Source: Fibrobacter succinogenes (GTDB lineage Bacteria; Fibrobacterota; Fibrobacteria; Fibrobacterales; Fibrobacteraceae). Taken from it: DNA of 64,000 nt. The notes under the pieces were generated by a model. It worked only from the letters and a program-made list of their open reading frames with translations, did no database searches and was not told where the DNA came from. The stretch spans positions 310,001-374,000 of the forward strand of contig CACVQR010000001.1 of the NCBI GenBank assembly GCA_902756345.1, given 5' to 3'. Positions 15,596 through 24,605 of the stretch are shown here, in pieces (position 1 is the stretch's first letter; every line of letters starts with the position of its first letter). A program made the translations under genes and the position numbers.

Positions 15596-15847
15596 TTAGG
15601 GATTCACAGTAATATCGGTAAAGCGGTCGACGATAGTACCGTCGGCGAGCGTCACCTTGCTCTCGAAATCTTCACGATCGCGCACCCAGAGCGTTCCCTT
15701 CGGGTGGTCGGGAGTCTCGTACTCGCTGCGGTAAACGACAAGCGGTTCAACCGATTCACAATCTAGGGCGTCGGCGGTAACGACGGTGTAGATCATCGTT
15801 TCTTTTTTGTAATGGCGATAGCGGTGACCGGCAATTGCTTTCGACAT
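15596..15847 (-). CDS. DUF1653 domain protein
   Basis: 83 residues. The family pattern is plain: GHRYRHYKKETMIYTVV, EPLVVYRSEYE, LWVRDREDFESKV and VDRFTDI. DUF1653 is a small beta-rich domain of unknown function. It starts one base after the patatin-like gene ends, so it is the last gene of the six-gene operon that begins with the hybrid kinases. Confidence 0.88.
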   Translation of the reverse strand: MSKAIAGHRYRHYKKETMIYTVVTADALDCESVEPLVVYRSEYETPDHPKGTLWVRDREDFESKVTLADGTIVDRFTDITVNP

Positions 15848-15848
15848 A

Positions 15849-16718
15849 TTACTTTTCCAGAAATGCGAGCAGTTTGGGCATGAGCGCGGTTGCGTCTTTT
15901 ACGCCGAGATCGTACAGTTTTACGAGTTTGGACTTGTCTTTTTCCAGGCGGTCGATTTTGAAGCTTTCGCTCGGACGGATCATGAACGCAGAACCTTGAG
16001 CGACACGTTCCTCTAGCGTGCGCAAGCACTGGTTGTAGCGAATGTGGCGGTTTCTTGCCGCTTCGATAAACTTGGGGTACTTGCGGTAGAAAAGCTTGAA
16101 CAGGGGAATCATGGAGTTGGGTTTCTTGACAAAGCCTTCGGGCTGTGTGACGATAACGACCTGTTTTTTGTAACCCATGCCCGTAAACACTTCGAACGGA
16201 ATGCTGTCGCCGACACCACCATCCAGAAGCTTCATGCCGTCAACTTCTACGATATGGCTCATGAGCGGGAGCGAGGCCGAGGCGCGAATCTTGTCCATGT
16301 CTTCGGGCTTGTCCAAATCGCAAGTGAGCAGGTATTCGGGGCCGCCGGTTTCCAGATTCGTCGCGACCGCATAGAATTTTGTTTCGGCCGTATTCTCGCG
16401 GAACTTTTCGAAGTCAAACGGATCGATGACGCGCGGAATCTGATTGTAGCAATAATCCAGTTCGAAAAATTCACCGGTGCGAACCAGGTTGCCCCAGCTC
16501 ATGTAGCGCTTGCTCGCCGAATGAATGGTGTCGAGGCGCTTGTTGCGTTCGCGTTGTTCCGACAGATAGCTGCAGAGGTGCGTGGCTCCAGCCGAGGTTC
16601 CGGCACATGCTCCAAACTTGATTCCGTTATCCAAAAATACATCCAGTACGCCAGCCGAATACGCGCCGCGCATGCCGCCGCCTTCAACAGCAAGCGCAAT
16701 ATCCTTATACATCGCCAT
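15849..16718 (-). CDS. Patatin-like phospholipase family protein
   Basis: 289 residues from the ATG at 16718, which overlaps the Nudix stop as TAATG; a longer frame exists but lies inside the upstream gene. The nucleophile elbow GTSAG (Ser) follows the oxyanion loop GGGMRGAYSAGVLD, and the catalytic Asp is in LLDGGVGDSIP. It resembles the bacterial YjjU branch. Predicted lipid acyl hydrolase in the cytoplasm or at the inner membrane; no signal peptide. Confidence 0.92.
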   Translation of the reverse strand: MAMYKDIALAVEGGGMRGAYSAGVLDVFLDNGIKFGACAGTSAGATHLCSYLSEQRERNKRLDTIHSASKRYMSWGNLVRTGEFFELDYCYNQIPRVIDPFDFEKFRENTAETKFYAVATNLETGGPEYLLTCDLDKPEDMDKIRASASLPLMSHIVEVDGMKLLDGGVGDSIPFEVFTGMGYKKQVVIVTQPEGFVKKPNSMIPLFKLFYRKYPKFIEAARNRHIRYNQCLRTLEERVAQGSAFMIRPSESFKIDRLEKDKSKLVKLYDLGVKDATALMPKLLAFLEK

Positions 16719-17251
16719 TAGGCATTCTCCATGAGCCACAAATAATCTTTCGGATGTTCAACGAACTTTTCGGGGTGTAACTTATGCTTTGCAAAGAATT
16801 CTTCGCGAGTCATCCAGGTAAAGCTATCGACCTCGCCCGGTTGCGGCACAAGCGAATTCGCTTCTTCGTCGTTTAACGAAATCTTGTAGACGTCGTAGTA
16901 TTCGTTGTCGAGGTAAGAGCCGCCGTTAAGCACGCTTTCGTGCTTAGCCTCGAATAGATATTCGAGGTCGCGCGAACTCTTGTGCACGCCCAGTTCTTCG
17001 CGCAGTTCGCGCACGGCGGCATTCACGCTGGAATCGCCTGCCGAAATATGGCCTGCGCAACTTGTGTCGAAAAGTCCGGGGTTGTTTTCTTTCACGCGAC
17101 TGCGAAGCTGGAACAGAATGCGGCCTTTGCTGTCAAACGCCCAGATATGCACCGTGCGGTGCCACAATCCCTTGGCATGAACTTCGGTACGCCCACGAGA
17201 ATATCCGGCAGGAGTCCCATCCGCATTCAAGATATCAATTTGTTCTTCCAT
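16718..17251 (-). CDS. Nudix hydrolase
   Basis: 177 residues. The Nudix box is GHISAGDSSVNAAVRELREE plus LGV; the first Glu of the consensus is Asp here, while the metal-binding REx2EE core is kept. Overall layout resembles the YfcD / isopentenyl-diphosphate isomerase-like branch (WHRTVHIWAFDSKGRILFQ). Substrate unknown. The start overlaps the preceding hybrid kinase by 17 bases. Confidence 0.9.
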   Translation of the reverse strand: MEEQIDILNADGTPAGYSRGRTEVHAKGLWHRTVHIWAFDSKGRILFQLRSRVKENNPGLFDTSCAGHISAGDSSVNAAVRELREELGVHKSSRDLEYLFEAKHESVLNGGSYLDNEYYDVYKISLNDEEANSLVPQPGEVDSFTWMTREEFFAKHKLHPEKFVEHPKDYLWLMENA

Positions 17252-19739
17252 CCATCACTCGCTCTTTAATCGCTTTGACAATGCGTCTGTATTCGCGCAT
17301 CAAGTCATCATGGCGAACTCGCACATAGTCGTAGTCGCCTTCGTTGCAGGCAAATTCCATCGCCTTTGCAATACTTGCAATCTCAACCGCACCAATGTAA
17401 AGCGAAGAACTCTTCAGCATCTGCACCATCAAACGGTAACTTTCGAAGTCTTCGTCCTTGAACAACTTGTTCAAGACCACATCGTACTGTTTATCGACAT
17501 AAACCATCATCTTCTTGCGATAAAGGGCTTCATTCCTTTCGCAACAGAACAGGCCAACCGAGATATCCAACACATCGCTAGGTAGGTTCTCGTTCGTCTT
17601 TTTCGATTCCTGAATCAGCATCGGTTTCTTTACAGGCTTTTCTTCTGCAGGCGAAGGCTCTTCCACTTCTTCTTTCTTGGGCAATTCATCGTAATGCTTA
17701 ATCAACTCCTTCGGCAAGAACTTCAGGAGAATCGTAAACAGGGCATCTTCGTGAACCGGCTTCGTCAAGAAATCGGCAAATCCCGTCGTCTCGCAAATCG
17801 TCTTTGCAGAAGCGCTATCTTCGGCAGTAAGCATCACAATCGGCGTATGCTGATTCGGGTGATCGTCCAGCGTCTTCATGATTGTCAGAATATCCAAGCC
17901 ATCGACAATCGGCATCGTATGGTCAAGGAATATCATGTCGTAATGGTTACGCCTGAACTTTTCAATCGCCTCCATACCGTTCGAAACCGAATCGAAGCGG
18001 GCCAATGTTTCTTTTATAAGTCCGCTCATCACGCGCAAATTCATGGGCACATCGTCAATGGCCAGAATCGATGCATTCGGTGCAAAGAAATGAATGGACT
18101 TGTTTTCGGACACATGCACGAATTCGTTGTACCGCGTCTTAAAATCACCCATCAGCTCGTTTTTGACGACTTTCTGCGGGATTGCAATTTCGACAACCGG
18201 AAGCCCATCCGCAATATGGCTACTCCTGATTGTACCGCCGAGAGCGCCCACCAGCATCTTGACAAGCGTCAGCGAAGCCCCCGTCCAGCTGACGCCCGCA
18301 TCCGGCACATCAATCACCAAGTCAATCTTCTGAGTACTTTCTTCACCGTTTTCGTCTTCGGCCCAGCGGTAACCAATTTGAACAATGTTTGCACTGTTGA
18401 CGACCAGGCGTTCTGCGTTGAACAAGATATTACTTACAATCTGCCACAAGCGCGATTCATCGCCTTCAAGCTGAGTCGGAATCGAAGAATCGACCAACAG
18501 TTCGAACTCCACCGGCTTTTTGCGGTTACGGGCAGCACTGTAGCAATCACAGAGGACCGCAAACAGGTCGTATTCCTTGATCGAAATTTCAAGGCTGTTC
18601 GTGCGGATTTTGTTCATGTCCAAAATATCGTTCGAAAGCAAAAGCAGTTCCTGGCCCGAAGCGCGCATTTCCGAAACGTATTCCTTGAGCGAAGAATTAG
18701 TCGATTCCCTCAAGACAATCGCGCCCATATTCAAGACATTCATCGCCGGATTGCGAATATCCTGGCCCACGGAATCCATCATGCGCAAGCGATCCAGTTC
18801 GTCGCTTACCAAATGTCCCTTCAAGTGAGATTCCCGATTCCTGCGAACCAAGAAGAATCGAATTCCAAGGCCCGTCAAGAACAGCAGCATCAAGAATCCG
18901 ACAACCCAGAACACCAAGAAAGATAACTGGTTCAAACCGTCCGATACATCTTCGCCGGCAACCATTCCCGCAAGCATGAAATCGTCTTGCGAAGGCTTCG
19001 CCATATAGAAGTAATAGGTCTCGTTTCCTACTTGGACATTTCTTGCCGAGGCAAGTCCGCCATGGTCCATATCCTGACGGAGCCAGCCATAAATCTTGCC
19101 AACATCGACTTCACTCCACACAGAATCCTGGCGCCACTTTCCAGTATTATTCTGGATCAGGACCCGGCCATCGTTATCGATTATCTGAGTAAAGCATTTC
19201 TTCTCAAAGCAATCCGCATCGAAGAAATCGTTTATCGGGATTTCGTCGTACTGCAAGTACAGCACAAATCGGACGTTATGGCCATGGAACACCGGAACGC
19301 CAAGCAAAATCCCCATCCTTTCGCTGTAGCAAACCGATTGTCTGCCGCGGAACGATCCCATGATACACCGGTAAGTTTCGTCTGGCAGCATGAACCGCGA
19401 AGAATCCACGTACACCGTTCCATCAAGCGCAATCAAGCCATAGCTAGAATTTTCGTCCTTCACGTCCGACAGGGCTAAGAAATCTTCCACGCGCGCGCCG
19501 TCAGTTTCTATTTTACGCGCAACCATCGAAAGGGCATCCAGCTGTGCATGCAATTTCTCGTCCACAAGATGGGCGGTCAATACGGCTTGCTGCGACACAT
19601 GCTTTGTTACATAGGCATCCAAAAGAGTATCGAGCTTTACTCGAAGCAATACGCAAACAAGACACAGGACAAACACGACGGAGGCAAGCCAAACCACCAT
19701 CTTGATGTTGATCTTCGCGCTTCTAGGGGTTAGTTCCAT
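17235..19739 (-). CDS. Degenerate hybrid histidine kinase (pseudokinase) with receiver and altered Hpt domain
   Basis: 834 residues. Membrane segments at about 14-33 and 272-297 enclose a periplasmic sensor region with two Cys pairs. The dimerisation helix has MMDSVGQDIRNPAMN: the phospho-accepting His is Gln at residue 326 (codon CAG). In the ATPase domain the N box survives (NILFNA) but the DxGxG and GxGxG nucleotide loops are lost (DVPDAGVS, then directly VKMLVGALGG). The receiver (about 565-690) keeps IDD, the Asp in FLDHTMP, Thr in MLTAED and Lys in TKPV. The C-terminal Hpt-like bundle has VQMLKSSSLYIGA, with Gln 773 at the His position. It probably acts as a partner or scaffold, not a kinase. 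Overlaps the BMP gene by 17 bases. Confidence 0.9.
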   Translation of the reverse strand: MELTPRSAKINIKMVVWLASVVFVLCLVCVLLRVKLDTLLDAYVTKHVSQQAVLTAHLVDEKLHAQLDALSMVARKIETDGARVEDFLALSDVKDENSSYGLIALDGTVYVDSSRFMLPDETYRCIMGSFRGRQSVCYSERMGILLGVPVFHGHNVRFVLYLQYDEIPINDFFDADCFEKKCFTQIIDNDGRVLIQNNTGKWRQDSVWSEVDVGKIYGWLRQDMDHGGLASARNVQVGNETYYFYMAKPSQDDFMLAGMVAGEDVSDGLNQLSFLVFWVVGFLMLLFLTGLGIRFFLVRRNRESHLKGHLVSDELDRLRMMDSVGQDIRNPAMNVLNMGAIVLRESTNSSLKEYVSEMRASGQELLLLSNDILDMNKIRTNSLEISIKEYDLFAVLCDCYSAARNRKKPVEFELLVDSSIPTQLEGDESRLWQIVSNILFNAERLVVNSANIVQIGYRWAEDENGEESTQKIDLVIDVPDAGVSWTGASLTLVKMLVGALGGTIRSSHIADGLPVVEIAIPQKVVKNELMGDFKTRYNEFVHVSENKSIHFFAPNASILAIDDVPMNLRVMSGLIKETLARFDSVSNGMEAIEKFRRNHYDMIFLDHTMPIVDGLDILTIMKTLDDHPNQHTPIVMLTAEDSASAKTICETTGFADFLTKPVHEDALFTILLKFLPKELIKHYDELPKKEEVEEPSPAEEKPVKKPMLIQESKKTNENLPSDVLDISVGLFCCERNEALYRKKMMVYVDKQYDVVLNKLFKDEDFESYRLMVQMLKSSSLYIGAVEIASIAKAMEFACNEGDYDYVRVRHDDLMREYRRIVKAIKERVMDGRTN

Positions 19740-20826
19740 CGACTACCCCCTTGACGAACCAATCGAACCGATTCAGCATCTCATCGTCGGTCATGCTTTC
19801 GCCTTCGCCTACACGGATTTCACCTTGGTTATCTTCAATTGGACCGTAAAACACATCGAACTTGCCTTGCGTCAAGTGAATTTTTTCTTCTTCAACAATC
19901 TGACGTATCGACGCTTCGACATTGCGAGTCATCTCGGCCAAGTCCATCATGCCGCTTTCTAGCCCAAGCCAATAAGAACGCCCTTCAAATTTATCCTGGA
20001 GAACCTCGCGAATCTTGGGAACATAGAAATTTTCCCAGTGCCAAACCGGCGCCGTCAAGAACCTATCTGGGAACCTTTTGGAATTGTCCCTATTGTAACC
20101 GATAATCCAGACGTTTCTTTCGTCTGCAATGTTGTACGGAGACAACGCATCCAGATGAGTCGTCAGGACATCGATATTGTGATTATCAAGCAACGAGCGG
20201 GTCGAATCGGCAGCCCTGTTTTCATCGTTCCACGATCCAGTCCAGCTGACAAACACCTTCGCTTCGGGATTAACCTTCTGAACACCAAGCGCAAACGCAT
20301 TGATGCCGCGATTCACTTCAGAAATATTGAGCCCGGCCACATAACCGATTTCGTTCGTTTTCGTCTTCAATCCGGCCACAATTCCCGAAAGATAACGTAG
20401 TTGGTACATACGGCCAAAGAAACTGGACAAATTCGTCATCGATTTCAGTCCGGTCGCATGAAAGAACGTGACTTCCGGATGGTTTCTCGCCACAGCCATT
20501 TCGGCCGCGCCATAACCAAACGAAGTCGCTATGACAATCTTGGCTCCTTTGCGAACAGCTTCTTCCATAGTATCCTGCGCCGTTGAATCGAGCGGGACAT
20601 TCTCATAATAGGTAACCTCCAAATTCAATAGGGCTTGGGCTTGCGCTTTCTGAATCGCTTCGCAATGAGATTCGTTCCAGCTATGGTCATTACAGAGCCC
20701 CGCCATAATCACGGCAACACGAACTTTTTCCGGCTTTTCCTGGAATCCCGTTTCGGAGCCGAACATGAGCAACACGCCCACAATCATCGCAATCGCCAGC
20801 GCAGATGTTAGGACCATCCATTTCAT
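19723..20826 (-). CDS. Membrane-anchored BMP-family periplasmic binding protein
   Basis: 367 residues. An N-terminal hydrophobic anchor (about 4-24) has no lipobox Cys, so the protein seems tethered by its signal anchor. The rest follows the BMP/PnrA-like fold: VRVAVIMAGLCNDHSWN, IVIATSFGYGAAEMAVA, EVTFFHATG, EIGYVAGLNISEVNRGINAF and VWIIGYNRDNSKRFPD. BMP proteins bind nucleosides or related small molecules for ABC transporters, but no ABC gene is nearby. Flanked by two hybrid kinases with 4- and 17-base overlaps, it is best read as their ligand sensor. Confidence 0.88.
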   Translation of the reverse strand: MKWMVLTSALAIAMIVGVLLMFGSETGFQEKPEKVRVAVIMAGLCNDHSWNESHCEAIQKAQAQALLNLEVTYYENVPLDSTAQDTMEEAVRKGAKIVIATSFGYGAAEMAVARNHPEVTFFHATGLKSMTNLSSFFGRMYQLRYLSGIVAGLKTKTNEIGYVAGLNISEVNRGINAFALGVQKVNPEAKVFVSWTGSWNDENRAADSTRSLLDNHNIDVLTTHLDALSPYNIADERNVWIIGYNRDNSKRFPDRFLTAPVWHWENFYVPKIREVLQDKFEGRSYWLGLESGMMDLAEMTRNVEASIRQIVEEEKIHLTQGKFDVFYGPIEDNQGEIRVGEGESMTDDEMLNRFDWFVKGVVDGTNP

Positions 20827-23462
20827 CGTTCGTCAAGCCCCCTCTGGATGTTTTCAATCAGTTCAGCATGCAGAGCCATGGCGAGCTCATGAGTATCTTG
20901 AACAATTTTCATTCGAGATTCGCGGCTTGCCGTTTCCAGATTACGGAATATTTCCGCCATCGAGATTGCCCCAATGGCGACAGACGAATCATAAAGCACA
21001 TGCATGTAGAAACGGTAATTGTCCCAGTCGGAATTCTTGTAGCAGGTATCCACGTTTCTACACAGCGGAGAACCGACGTATTCCTGTAGCATTTCTACAT
21101 AGATTTCTTCGTCGTCGGCGCAGTAGTTCAAACCGGCCTTGATATCCAGGAACTCGCTGAAGGCCTTGAAGCGGTCAAGCAGCGTCGGCGCCGTAATCGA
21201 CCGCAGTTCAAGTTCGTCATCTCCGAACGTCGTTCCAATCTTGTTGCTAGACGTACTGCCCACTCCGTTCATCAAGTTCACCGTCGGGACCACAGGTTCC
21301 GTCAAGTCCTCGGGAGTCAGCACTAGCTGCTTGGGCAAGTACCACTTCATGGTGCGACGCAGGTCGCGTTCCTTGACCGGCTTAAGCAAATAATCGGCAA
21401 AGCCTTCGGCAAGGAACGAATCCTTGGCAAACGATTCCCCTTCAGACACAAGGGCTATCACAGGCGTATCCTTGTTCGGATACTTGTCCATCATCCTCAT
21501 TTTTCTAAAGACATCCACACCGTCCATCACCGGCATCATGTGGTCCAAGAAAATCAGGTCGTAATGTCTGGATTCTACCAGTTGCAAACACTGGTGACCG
21601 CTCAGGGCTTCGTCAATCTTCACTCTCGAATTGTTCAAGAAGCCGCGGAACATTTTGATATTCAGTTCAACGTCATCGACAATCAAAATTCTTGCTTCAG
21701 GTGCCAAGAACACTTCGGCCACTTCCTTGTTCTTGCGCGAGGCATTCCTGTAGCGCATCACAAAGTCGCCCATGGGTTCTGTATTCAGCACCAGCTGCGG
21801 AATTTCTACTAGGAACGAAGATCCTTCGCCGTAGCGGCTGTTAATCGTTATTTGCCCGCCGCACTTCGCCAAGAGCTCTTGTGTTAGGCTAAGTCCAAGA
21901 CCCATCCCCTCGATATCGCTTTCATCTTTTGGATTCTTGGGAAGGTACCTTTTGAATATGGTATCGCGGTCTTCCTTGCGGATGCCGACACCAGTGTCCT
22001 TGACGGCTATCTTCAACATGATGTAGTCGTCTGTCCGGAGCGAACCAATCGGCGGCAAGTTGTCAAAGCCCACCGACAAGGAAACACCACCCACTTCGGT
22101 AAACTTGACCGCATTCGAAAGCAGGTTGTTGATAATCTGGATAATACGATTCTGGTCGCCCCACAGGCAAGACGGAATATCGGGATCGCAATCAATGTGG
22201 AAGGTCAGGCCCTTCGCCTTCGCCTTCGGTTCATTTTCATTGTAGCATTCCTGCAAAACCGTAAACACATCGTATTCCATCGATTCAATACTCAAGCGGC
22301 CCGACTCGATTTTCGAAACATCCAGCACATCGTTCACCAACGAAATAATGCTTTGACCCGCACTCTGGATGTTATTGGAATATTCCTTCATGTTGTCATC
22401 GTGCAGTTCCTTTTGCACAATGGAATTCATGCCGAGAATACCATTCACCGAAGAACGAATCTCGCGGCTCATGCTCGTAAGGAACGCCGTCTTGGAGCGG
22501 TTCACGCGAATAAGCCTCAAGTATTTTGCAAATACCGCCGTGAACAGCAATACAAACAATACATAAATCAAGAAGATAAGAATCGCATTGCGCAAGACAG
22601 CAATATTCAAGGTCTTCCAGAGAGTACGTTCTTCAACAAGGCGGACTACATACCAGTCACCCTGCACCAGCGCCGAGAATACGCGATAGTCCCTGCCTCT
22701 CAGGTTAAAGACAAACGGTTCTTCGCTGGCAAACGAAATCGCCCGGGCCAGTTTTTCCTCGTCCGTGCCCCAGAAATCAGCCGACAAGTAGTTCTTTCCA
22801 TTCTGGGTAATATCCGTGTGCGAAATAACCACACCCTTCTTGTCGATAATGACCAACATGTTCGACAAGTCACTCTTCTTGACATCGGCAATTAAGTCCT
22901 TCAAGAACAGATCAACCGCAAGAACGCTTTTCTTATCGGAAAGGCGCAAACTGATGGTCACCACCTGTTCGCCACTGTGCGGATCCAAGTGAGTCGGAAT
23001 CAAGGCAACCTTGTCCTTTTCCATAGGGGCATTCTGGTACCACGGCCTAATCGAGGGTACATAACCTGCGGCAGGAGTCCAACGGCCCCCGCTCAGGAAT
23101 TCATCGCGGAGCAAACCAAACATATTGCACAAGACAATATCGTTCGAATGTCTGTAATATTCCGCTTCGGAAACCAGCAGCGATTCCATCTGCGCCAGCG
23201 TGGCCCCATGATCCAAACTCTTTTCTGCGATGCGAGTGGTTACGCGCAGCACCGATTCGCCGCGGGCCAAGATTCCATTAATCGCTTCAGCATCCTTGGC
23301 ATTGGACATCTTGCCCGCGAGCAAGGTTTCTTGCTTCACGGATTCCAAATAATCTTTGAATATGTACACGCCGACTATGGCAAAGGCTAGCCCCACCACA
23401 ACAAGGATTATCCCGTAAAGAACTCTTACGCGATTCTCGTTTTCTATAGTCCTAGAGAACAC
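20823..23462 (-). CDS. Cache-sensor hybrid histidine kinase with Arg in place of the H-box His
   Basis: I take the GTG at 23462 as start (879 residues); a TTG at 23513 is in frame but would leave four bases to the divergent gene. Two membrane segments flank a dCache-like sensor (RPWYQNAP, VVTISLRLSDKKSVLAVDL). The dimerisation helix reads FLTSMSREIRSSVNGILG: the usual His is Arg (codon CGC, 22464-22466). The ATPase domain is intact (NNLLSNAVKFT, DTGVGI, GMGLGLSL). The receiver has VDD, FLDHMMP, LVSEG and LKPV. The Hpt-like end keeps a His (MHVLYDSS) but lacks the following Lys-Gly. First gene of the operon. Confidence 0.88.
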   Translation of the reverse strand: MFSRTIENENRVRVLYGIILVVVGLAFAIVGVYIFKDYLESVKQETLLAGKMSNAKDAEAINGILARGESVLRVTTRIAEKSLDHGATLAQMESLLVSEAEYYRHSNDIVLCNMFGLLRDEFLSGGRWTPAAGYVPSIRPWYQNAPMEKDKVALIPTHLDPHSGEQVVTISLRLSDKKSVLAVDLFLKDLIADVKKSDLSNMLVIIDKKGVVISHTDITQNGKNYLSADFWGTDEEKLARAISFASEEPFVFNLRGRDYRVFSALVQGDWYVVRLVEERTLWKTLNIAVLRNAILIFLIYVLFVLLFTAVFAKYLRLIRVNRSKTAFLTSMSREIRSSVNGILGMNSIVQKELHDDNMKEYSNNIQSAGQSIISLVNDVLDVSKIESGRLSIESMEYDVFTVLQECYNENEPKAKAKGLTFHIDCDPDIPSCLWGDQNRIIQIINNLLSNAVKFTEVGGVSLSVGFDNLPPIGSLRTDDYIMLKIAVKDTGVGIRKEDRDTIFKRYLPKNPKDESDIEGMGLGLSLTQELLAKCGGQITINSRYGEGSSFLVEIPQLVLNTEPMGDFVMRYRNASRKNKEVAEVFLAPEARILIVDDVELNIKMFRGFLNNSRVKIDEALSGHQCLQLVESRHYDLIFLDHMMPVMDGVDVFRKMRMMDKYPNKDTPVIALVSEGESFAKDSFLAEGFADYLLKPVKERDLRRTMKWYLPKQLVLTPEDLTEPVVPTVNLMNGVGSTSSNKIGTTFGDDELELRSITAPTLLDRFKAFSEFLDIKAGLNYCADDEEIYVEMLQEYVGSPLCRNVDTCYKNSDWDNYRFYMHVLYDSSVAIGAISMAEIFRNLETASRESRMKIVQDTHELAMALHAELIENIQRGLDER

Positions 23463-23516
23463 AATCAAAATATAAGATATTTCGGAATAAAAATTCACTA
23501 TGCTATATTTCAATAC

Positions 23517-24605
23517 ATGAAGTTCGAAAAAGAAACATTAGAAGGCCTGCTCAAGAGGGCTGAATCCGAGGGAATTTTCAACAAGGCGGTCGCCGGGTTT
23601 ATTTTGTCCGACGGAAGCCGCGAGATTTTGACGCTTAATACGCCCGAAAATACGGTTTTCGACATCGCAAGCCTCACCAAGGTGTGCCCCACCTCCACAC
23701 TCGCCCTGAGTTACATTCTCGAAGGCAAGCTCTCGGTCGATACAAAGGTCATCGACTTCATTCCCGAACTCCAGACCAATTACCGCGAAGACATTCGTGT
23801 TTTCCACTTGCTGACGCACAGTCTCGATTACCGTGTGCCCATGAAGACCCTGCGCACGCTGCCTGCCGAAGGCATTCTGAACGCCCTGTTCACGTACCAG
23901 TTTGAGAAGGCGCCCGGCGCAGATTTTAATTACGGCAACCCCGCCAGCGTACTTCTTGGAATCATACTGCAGCGCCTTATGGGCAAGGACCTGCAGCAGC
24001 AAGGCCGCGAGCGATTCTTTATCCCACTCGGCATGACACGTTCCGGCTGGGATCCGCTTGACCGCGACTGGAATCCGATTCCGAAAGCAGAAATCTCGCC
24101 GACCGAAATTTGCAGTTTCAGGGGTCGCGAAATCCAGGGCGAAATTCACGACGAAAGCGCCTGGGTGCTGCGAAAGCTGTTCCCCGTCGGTAGCGCCGGC
24201 ATGTTCAGCTGCGTGCCTGATTTGCTGAATTTCGTACAAATGATTTTGAACGATGGTATGATTGCGAATGGATGTGGCGGGAAATGCGCACGGGTCGCTC
24301 CGGCGGGAATTCTCAAGATGGTCAGCGAAAACGCCTTTGCGCTCGATTCAGCCAGCAAGTATTCCACCGCCAAGGACGCCTGCACCGCCCTCGGCTGGGA
24401 ACTGAACAACGCAAAATTCATGGGTACAAAAATTTCGCCGCGTACCTTCGGCAAGACGGGATTCACCGGCGCAAGCATCGTAGCCGACCCCGACAAGGGT
24501 GCCGCCGTGGTGCTGCTCAGTAACTTTACCTACCCGCACCGCGAAGCGAACGCCGACCGCATCCACGCCTTCCGCGCATCCCTTAGCGACGCCTTCTTCG
24601 GATAA
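23517..24605 (+). CDS. Serine hydrolase of the beta-lactamase / class C penicillin-binding protein family
   Basis: 362 residues. SxxK catalytic motif SLTK in FDIASLTKVCPT near residue 56 and the YxN-type motif in FNYGNPAS near 144; the KTG-like motif is GKTGFTGASI near 320. Likely an esterase or D-Ala-D-Ala peptidase-like enzyme. No signal peptide is seen, which favours a cytoplasmic location. The promoter must lie in the short region shared with the divergent kinase operon (TATGCTATATTT at about 23499). Confidence 0.9.
   Translation: MKFEKETLEGLLKRAESEGIFNKAVAGFILSDGSREILTLNTPENTVFDIASLTKVCPTSTLALSYILEGKLSVDTKVIDFIPELQTNYREDIRVFHLLTHSLDYRVPMKTLRTLPAEGILNALFTYQFEKAPGADFNYGNPASVLLGIILQRLMGKDLQQQGRERFFIPLGMTRSGWDPLDRDWNPIPKAEISPTEICSFRGREIQGEIHDESAWVLRKLFPVGSAGMFSCVPDLLNFVQMILNDGMIANGCGGKCARVAPAGILKMVSENAFALDSASKYSTAKDACTALGWELNNAKFMGTKISPRTFGKTGFTGASIVADPDKGAAVVLLSNFTYPHREANADRIHAFRASLSDAFFG

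Follow-up and report, generated by a model that had tools for sequence, protein, structure and literature searches.

In the window, a stretch of 64,000 nucleotides of Fibrobacter succinogenes DNA, an operon encodes two hybrid sensor kinase homologues (K1 and K2) on either side of a BMP/PnrA-family, purine-type binding protein, and neither kinase homologue retains the phospho-accepting histidine of its H box. The loss is common to 12 Fibrobacter species in which, judged by substitution rates, both genes are maintained by purifying selection, and it arose by the stepwise decay of a complete phosphorelay at the same chromosomal site. The operon probably senses its ligand by restraining another kinase and does not signal alone.

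The five genes of the operon lie on the minus strand and are transcribed in the order K1, BMP protein, K2, NUDIX hydrolase and patatin. The overlaps of 4 and 17 bases between the first three had been predicted, and the operon continues with overlaps of 17 bases between K2 and the NUDIX gene and of 22 bases between the NUDIX and patatin genes. K1 (20823..23462) comprises a periplasmic sensor between two transmembrane segments, followed by DHp, ATP-binding (CA), receiver and Hpt domains, with Pfam matches to HisKA, HATPase_c and Response_reg. Orthologue comparison makes a GTG start at 23462 likelier than the TTG at 23513 given in the original prediction, which, if right, shifts the residue numbering of K1 by 17. 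The BMP protein (19723..20826; Pfam Bmp, 1e-52) and K2 (17235..19739) are followed by the NUDIX hydrolase (IDI/YfcD-like, 16718..17251) and a patatin-like phospholipase with DUF6363 (15849..16739). On the plus strand, a serine-hydrolase (beta-lactamase-like) gene (23517..24605) closes the insertion site on the side opposite the NUDIX gene; it only marks the boundary and is no part of the system. Of 80 Fibrobacter genomes, 78 have the NUDIX gene, whether or not they carry the kinases, which weakens the case for NUDIX and patatin as effectors, and the patatin gene adjoins it also at sites that lack the kinases. The NUDIX hydrolase is probably a housekeeping enzyme that is only co-transcribed with the kinases, and the patatin is probably a bystander as well. 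In one genome (G079), the patatin gene (L036:5539-6428) reads as two overlapping frames, possibly a frameshift or an assembly error. Nothing informative came from scanning for promoters and terminators, nor from looking for repeats upstream of K1.

The order HisKA, HATPase, receiver, Hpt was found in both K1 and K2 by Pfam, by motif alignment to intact orthologues and, for K2, by the fold of the individual domains. In agreement with the original prediction, the H-box position is occupied in K1 by arginine (CGC, 22464..22466), within FLTSMSREIRSS, and in K2 by Gln326 (18762..18764), within SVGQDIRNP; the other nine HisKA kinases of the window genome all have the histidine. The ATP-binding domain of K1 (21795..22160) scores 9e-20 for HATPase_c, and its N, G1 and G2 boxes are intact. 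K2 has no HATPase_c match, and a gap of ca. 25 residues from its G1 to its G2 box removes the F box and the ATP lid, which substantiates the predicted loss of its nucleotide loops; Pfam gives it a sub-threshold HisKA match, a receiver and a weak Hpt match. The Hpt histidine of K2 is replaced by Gln773 (17421..17423), and both receivers keep their aspartate (Asp657 of K1 at 21543..21545, Asp606 of K2 at 17922..17924), likewise as predicted. The original prediction was silent on the completeness of the K1 ATP motifs and on the Hpt histidine of K1, His838 (21000..21002). With a mean pLDDT of 51, the single-chain structure model of K1 was unusable. The K2 model (mean pLDDT 69.8, pTM 0.34) is usable by domain only and supports the domain identities. 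The best compact match to its DHp-CA region is the kinase region of RetS (7n0e_B, TMt 0.76), a resemblance in fold that is no evidence of a shared role.

A BMP search over 80 genomes of the genus, combined with reading of the gene neighbourhoods, yielded 12 genomes with this arrangement, termed type A; several genomes are drafts and the NUDIX site is not visible in a few, so that absences are lower bounds. In all 12, both K1 and K2 lack the H-box histidine, which rules out a recent loss specific to one strain. The loss is hence fixed, while the replacing residue varies, being R (8), S (2) or N (2) in K1 and Q (9), T (2) or K (1) in K2. With nothing conserved at this position, a substitute acceptor residue was rejected, as was an alternative DHp histidine, none being retained across all 12 genomes. 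None of the 12 has lost the K1 ATP-binding boxes, the receiver aspartate of either protein or the K1 Hpt histidine. Conservation extends to the DHp helix residues on either side of the lost histidine, again in both proteins. Whole-gene pairwise dN/dS values are 0.07-0.13 for K1 and 0.04-0.12 for K2, and they are low also in the DHp and the degenerate ATPase region of K2. The frames are open in all 12 genomes and no gene of the pair has the dN/dS of a pseudogene (overall range 0.04-0.13). A literature search on these loci found no paper, with subscription journals mostly outside its coverage.

The BMP-family protein between the kinases has a hydrophobic N-terminus without a lipobox cysteine, which is probably a membrane anchor, as had been suggested. 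Its nearest solved relatives, 3s99 and AtzT, both bind purines. The contact residues of AtzT map onto W50, S102, E170, W199, H224 and D226, the same letters as in 3s99, and none of the six varies among the 12 type-A proteins except for one D-to-N change; in the second BMP proteins encoded at other loci, the pocket has undergone E-to-Q or D-to-N changes. AtzT is a BMP-family purine-binding protein thought to serve uptake (PMC6834077), whereas here the protein appears membrane-anchored and the whole window genome (99.2% complete) has no match to the BPD_transp_2 permease (PF02653), with a control search positive in 12 of 14 genomes. The predicted absence of an ABC transporter thus extends, for permeases of the BMP type, to the whole genome, and a transport role was rejected. 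The conserved purine pocket and the missing permease together indicate that the protein is a sensor and not part of a transporter. In Clostridia, relatives adjoin a phosphoribosyltransferase and an ABC transporter; this neighbourhood fits a purine ligand. The ligand is likelier to be a purine base than a nucleoside, which shifts the class originally proposed.

The site itself records how the pair came about. The cassette sits between the serine-hydrolase-like gene and the NUDIX gene, which are direct neighbours at empty sites (e.g. G010, G043, G009 and G063). Three genomes (G040, G011 and G030) carry at the same site a REC-REC-HD-GYP protein, a histidine kinase (HK, ~760 aa), K1, two BMP proteins and K2, with every histidine intact. 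These loci share the site and homologous K1, BMP and K2 proteins with the window operon, but differ from it in having all histidines and ATP sites, two BMP proteins and an HD-GYP output protein. Intermediates retain the K2 histidine: G038 (read from two contigs) keeps HD-GYP and HK and has lysine in K1, G031 keeps HD-GYP without HK and has arginine, G032 lacks both and has asparagine, and G074 has a single BMP protein and threonine in a K1 with an intact CA domain. The K1 ATPase motifs are degenerate in G031 and G032, and K1 of G074 has serine in place of the Hpt histidine. In G108, which lies outside the genus, HD-GYP and two BMP proteins accompany a K2 that has its histidine. The order of decay is a full phosphorelay, loss of the K1 histidine, loss of HK, HD-GYP and the second BMP protein, and finally loss of the K2 histidine.

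In a separate, BMP-less lineage (G034, G036, G033, G035 and G025) K2 has no membrane parts. The first four have K1 with its histidine but no usable CA domain and K2 with a partial CA domain but no histidine, while G025 has lost both histidines; frames are full-length and dN/dS is low across domains. The K2 histidine was lost independently in this lineage, and within its five K1-K2 pairs (L205, L206, L182, L183 and L235), which divide histidine and ATP site, the one pair without either histidine represents an independent parallel decay. Trees force at least two losses of the K2 histidine and at least two, by parsimony three, of the K1 histidine. An earlier combined tree gave the same main groups, with the placement of the long-branched G031 and G032 unsure. 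Among at least 24 genomes with the pair, 17 lack the K1 histidine, 17 the K2 histidine and 13 both. Hence, positional orthologues with intact histidines do exist, yet the loss is not recent in this strain, and the complex proposed as new would be no fresh assembly but the decay product of a canonical BMP-sensing HD-GYP phosphorelay. Of the original view, it was upheld that the BMP protein is no transporter part, that K1 but not K2 keeps its ATP motifs and that the receivers have their aspartate.

Three side observations concern the fate of the lost genes and a possible spread of the module. A search for a relocated HD-GYP orthologue in G039, G074 and G032 found none above the generic 38-40% identity. 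A kinase of G074 (G074:C31:15041-16213) shares 53% identity with the HK encoded at the ancestral locus and is perhaps the relocated HK. Outside Fibrobacter, two loci in Agathobacter and Lachnospiraceae MAGs (L080 and L081) encode a REC protein, two BMP proteins and a hybrid kinase in that order, followed on L080 by HD-GYP. This may mean that the sensing module was transferred, or that the contigs are mis-binned.

The window genome has, on another contig (L004), a locus of the canonical type B, in which HD-GYP is present and the kinases are intact. Type-B loci have the same architecture and homologous K1, BMP and K2 proteins within the same genus, and differ from type A in the same respects as the three intact loci at the insertion site. 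They accompany the operon in 11 of the 12 type-A genomes, which form one clade and hence are not independent evidence. The complete genome G039 has the operon but no type-B locus, orthologous HD-GYP or close paralogous kinase, its next-closest kinases being ~33-36% identical. The type-B locus is therefore not an obligate partner, and dependence on its kinases is weakened. Where present, the type-B HD-GYP/BMP kinases would be the obvious candidate targets, but we infer that they cannot be the sole ones.

As neither K1 nor K2 has an acceptor histidine, the pair cannot start a phosphorelay itself. We tentatively favour the reading, which falls just short of being probable, that K1, the BMP protein and K2 form a kinase-dead, ligand-gated membrane sensor that modulates another kinase in the manner of RetS. 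The hybrid kinase RetS, whose HATPase domain is degenerate, acts on GacS in three ways: as a phosphate sink, as an HExxT phosphatase and by blocking autophosphorylation (PMC5992135). By sequence, autophosphorylation is likewise impossible for the present pair, and K1 has the ExxT residues, Glu at H+1 and Ser/Thr at H+4, each in 12 of 12 type-A genomes. These residues fit such a modulator, together with the K1 ATP site, the receiver aspartates, the K1 Hpt histidine and the low dN/dS. A purine-like ligand would bind the BMP protein in the periplasm and change the state of a K1:K2 heterodimer, which would then act on a separate active kinase as RetS does on GacS. K1 could remove phosphate as a transmitter phosphatase, its Hpt domain and the receivers could take phosphate up as a sink, and the DHp helices could be an inhibitory partner of the active kinase. 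The loss of the proline at H+5 of K1 may bear on the phosphatase activity, the decay of two K2 receivers (G002 and G039) speaks against the reading, and in type-A K2 the residue at H+4 drifts among N, E, S and A. RetS of Pseudomonas aeruginosa resembles the present proteins as a hybrid kinase without autophosphorylation that keeps receivers, phosphatase motif and periplasmic sensor. However, RetS has kept its histidine and lost its ATP site, which speaks against the analogy: K1 shows the reverse, K2 has lost both, and RetS is a single protein where here a pair is found. A stronger version, in which the pair and the purine-type binding protein form a ligand-gated phosphatase and phosphate sink, the locus signals in no other way, and this state evolved repeatedly by stripping kinase activity from a working phosphorelay, is possible but doubtful.

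An attractive alternative is a kinase split in trans, with the K1 ATP site phosphorylating the histidine of a different kinase in a heterodimer under control of the BMP ligand. Other lineages do divide histidine and ATP site between K1 and K2, and a comparable division of labour is known from R. sphaeroides CheA3/CheA4 (PMC3591291), which G034, G036, G033 and G035 match in part. It would explain why the K1 CA domain is fully conserved in 12 of 12 genomes though useless in cis, and G074, whose CA-intact K1 lies beside a K2 with histidine, would suit it. In the window, however, neither operon partner has a histidine to offer and G039 lacks a close histidine-bearing paralogue, which leaves this explanation unlikely. 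A little less likely again is a relay in which other kinases or acetyl phosphate feed the receivers and the K1 Hpt domain, the BMP ligand gating passage to a response regulator outside the operon. The retained receiver aspartates and K1 Hpt histidine are what it predicts, but the usual lysine of the K1 Hpt domain is gone (HxxK to HxxY/C), the conserved threonine of the K1 receiver is lost in most species, two K2 receivers (G002 and G039) have also lost acidic-pocket and lysine residues, and G074 lacks the Hpt histidine.

Less likely still is a phosphate-independent output, in which a ligand-driven shape change regulates a bound protein and the phospho-sites are structural leftovers. The loss of both histidines in two lineages (type A and G025) is in line with it, and DivL (PMC4211667) offers an earlier example of a kinase fold put to a new use; the full ATP site of K1 and the receiver aspartates would be left unexplained. 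That the operon is a decaying relic without function, as the stepwise loss of HD-GYP, HK, one BMP protein and then the histidines and the empty sites in related genomes might suggest, is very improbable and already disfavoured, given that the frames run full length and every domain has a low dN/dS, both in the 12 species and in the BMP-less lineage, and that the BMP pocket is conserved.

Modulation of another kinase, our preferred reading, has precedents in kinase-dead homologues that act through an active kinase, namely RocA of group A Streptococcus and a ChrS frameshift mutant of C. glutamicum (PMC7028121, PMC9491836) and Caulobacter DivL. None of the three is known to involve an operon-encoded hybrid pair or a binding protein in between. 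Periplasmic binding proteins that work with a hybrid sensor kinase and no transporter, as in TorT/TorS and LuxP/LuxQ, resemble the K1-BMP-K2 arrangement, but their kinases are catalytically intact, whereas here two kinase homologues, both without the histidine, flank the binding protein. To our knowledge, the RetS operon includes no binding protein.

Kinase-dead histidine kinase homologues have been known singly, while here two lie adjacent and flank their binding protein. Within one genus a graded series leads from an intact phosphorelay to a histidine-less pair, and a second lineage arrived independently at the same state. As an experiment of nature, the series can show what a sensor kinase must retain for a signalling task other than phosphorylation, and it supplies ready-made intermediates in which the K1 histidine was lost first and the K2 histidine later.
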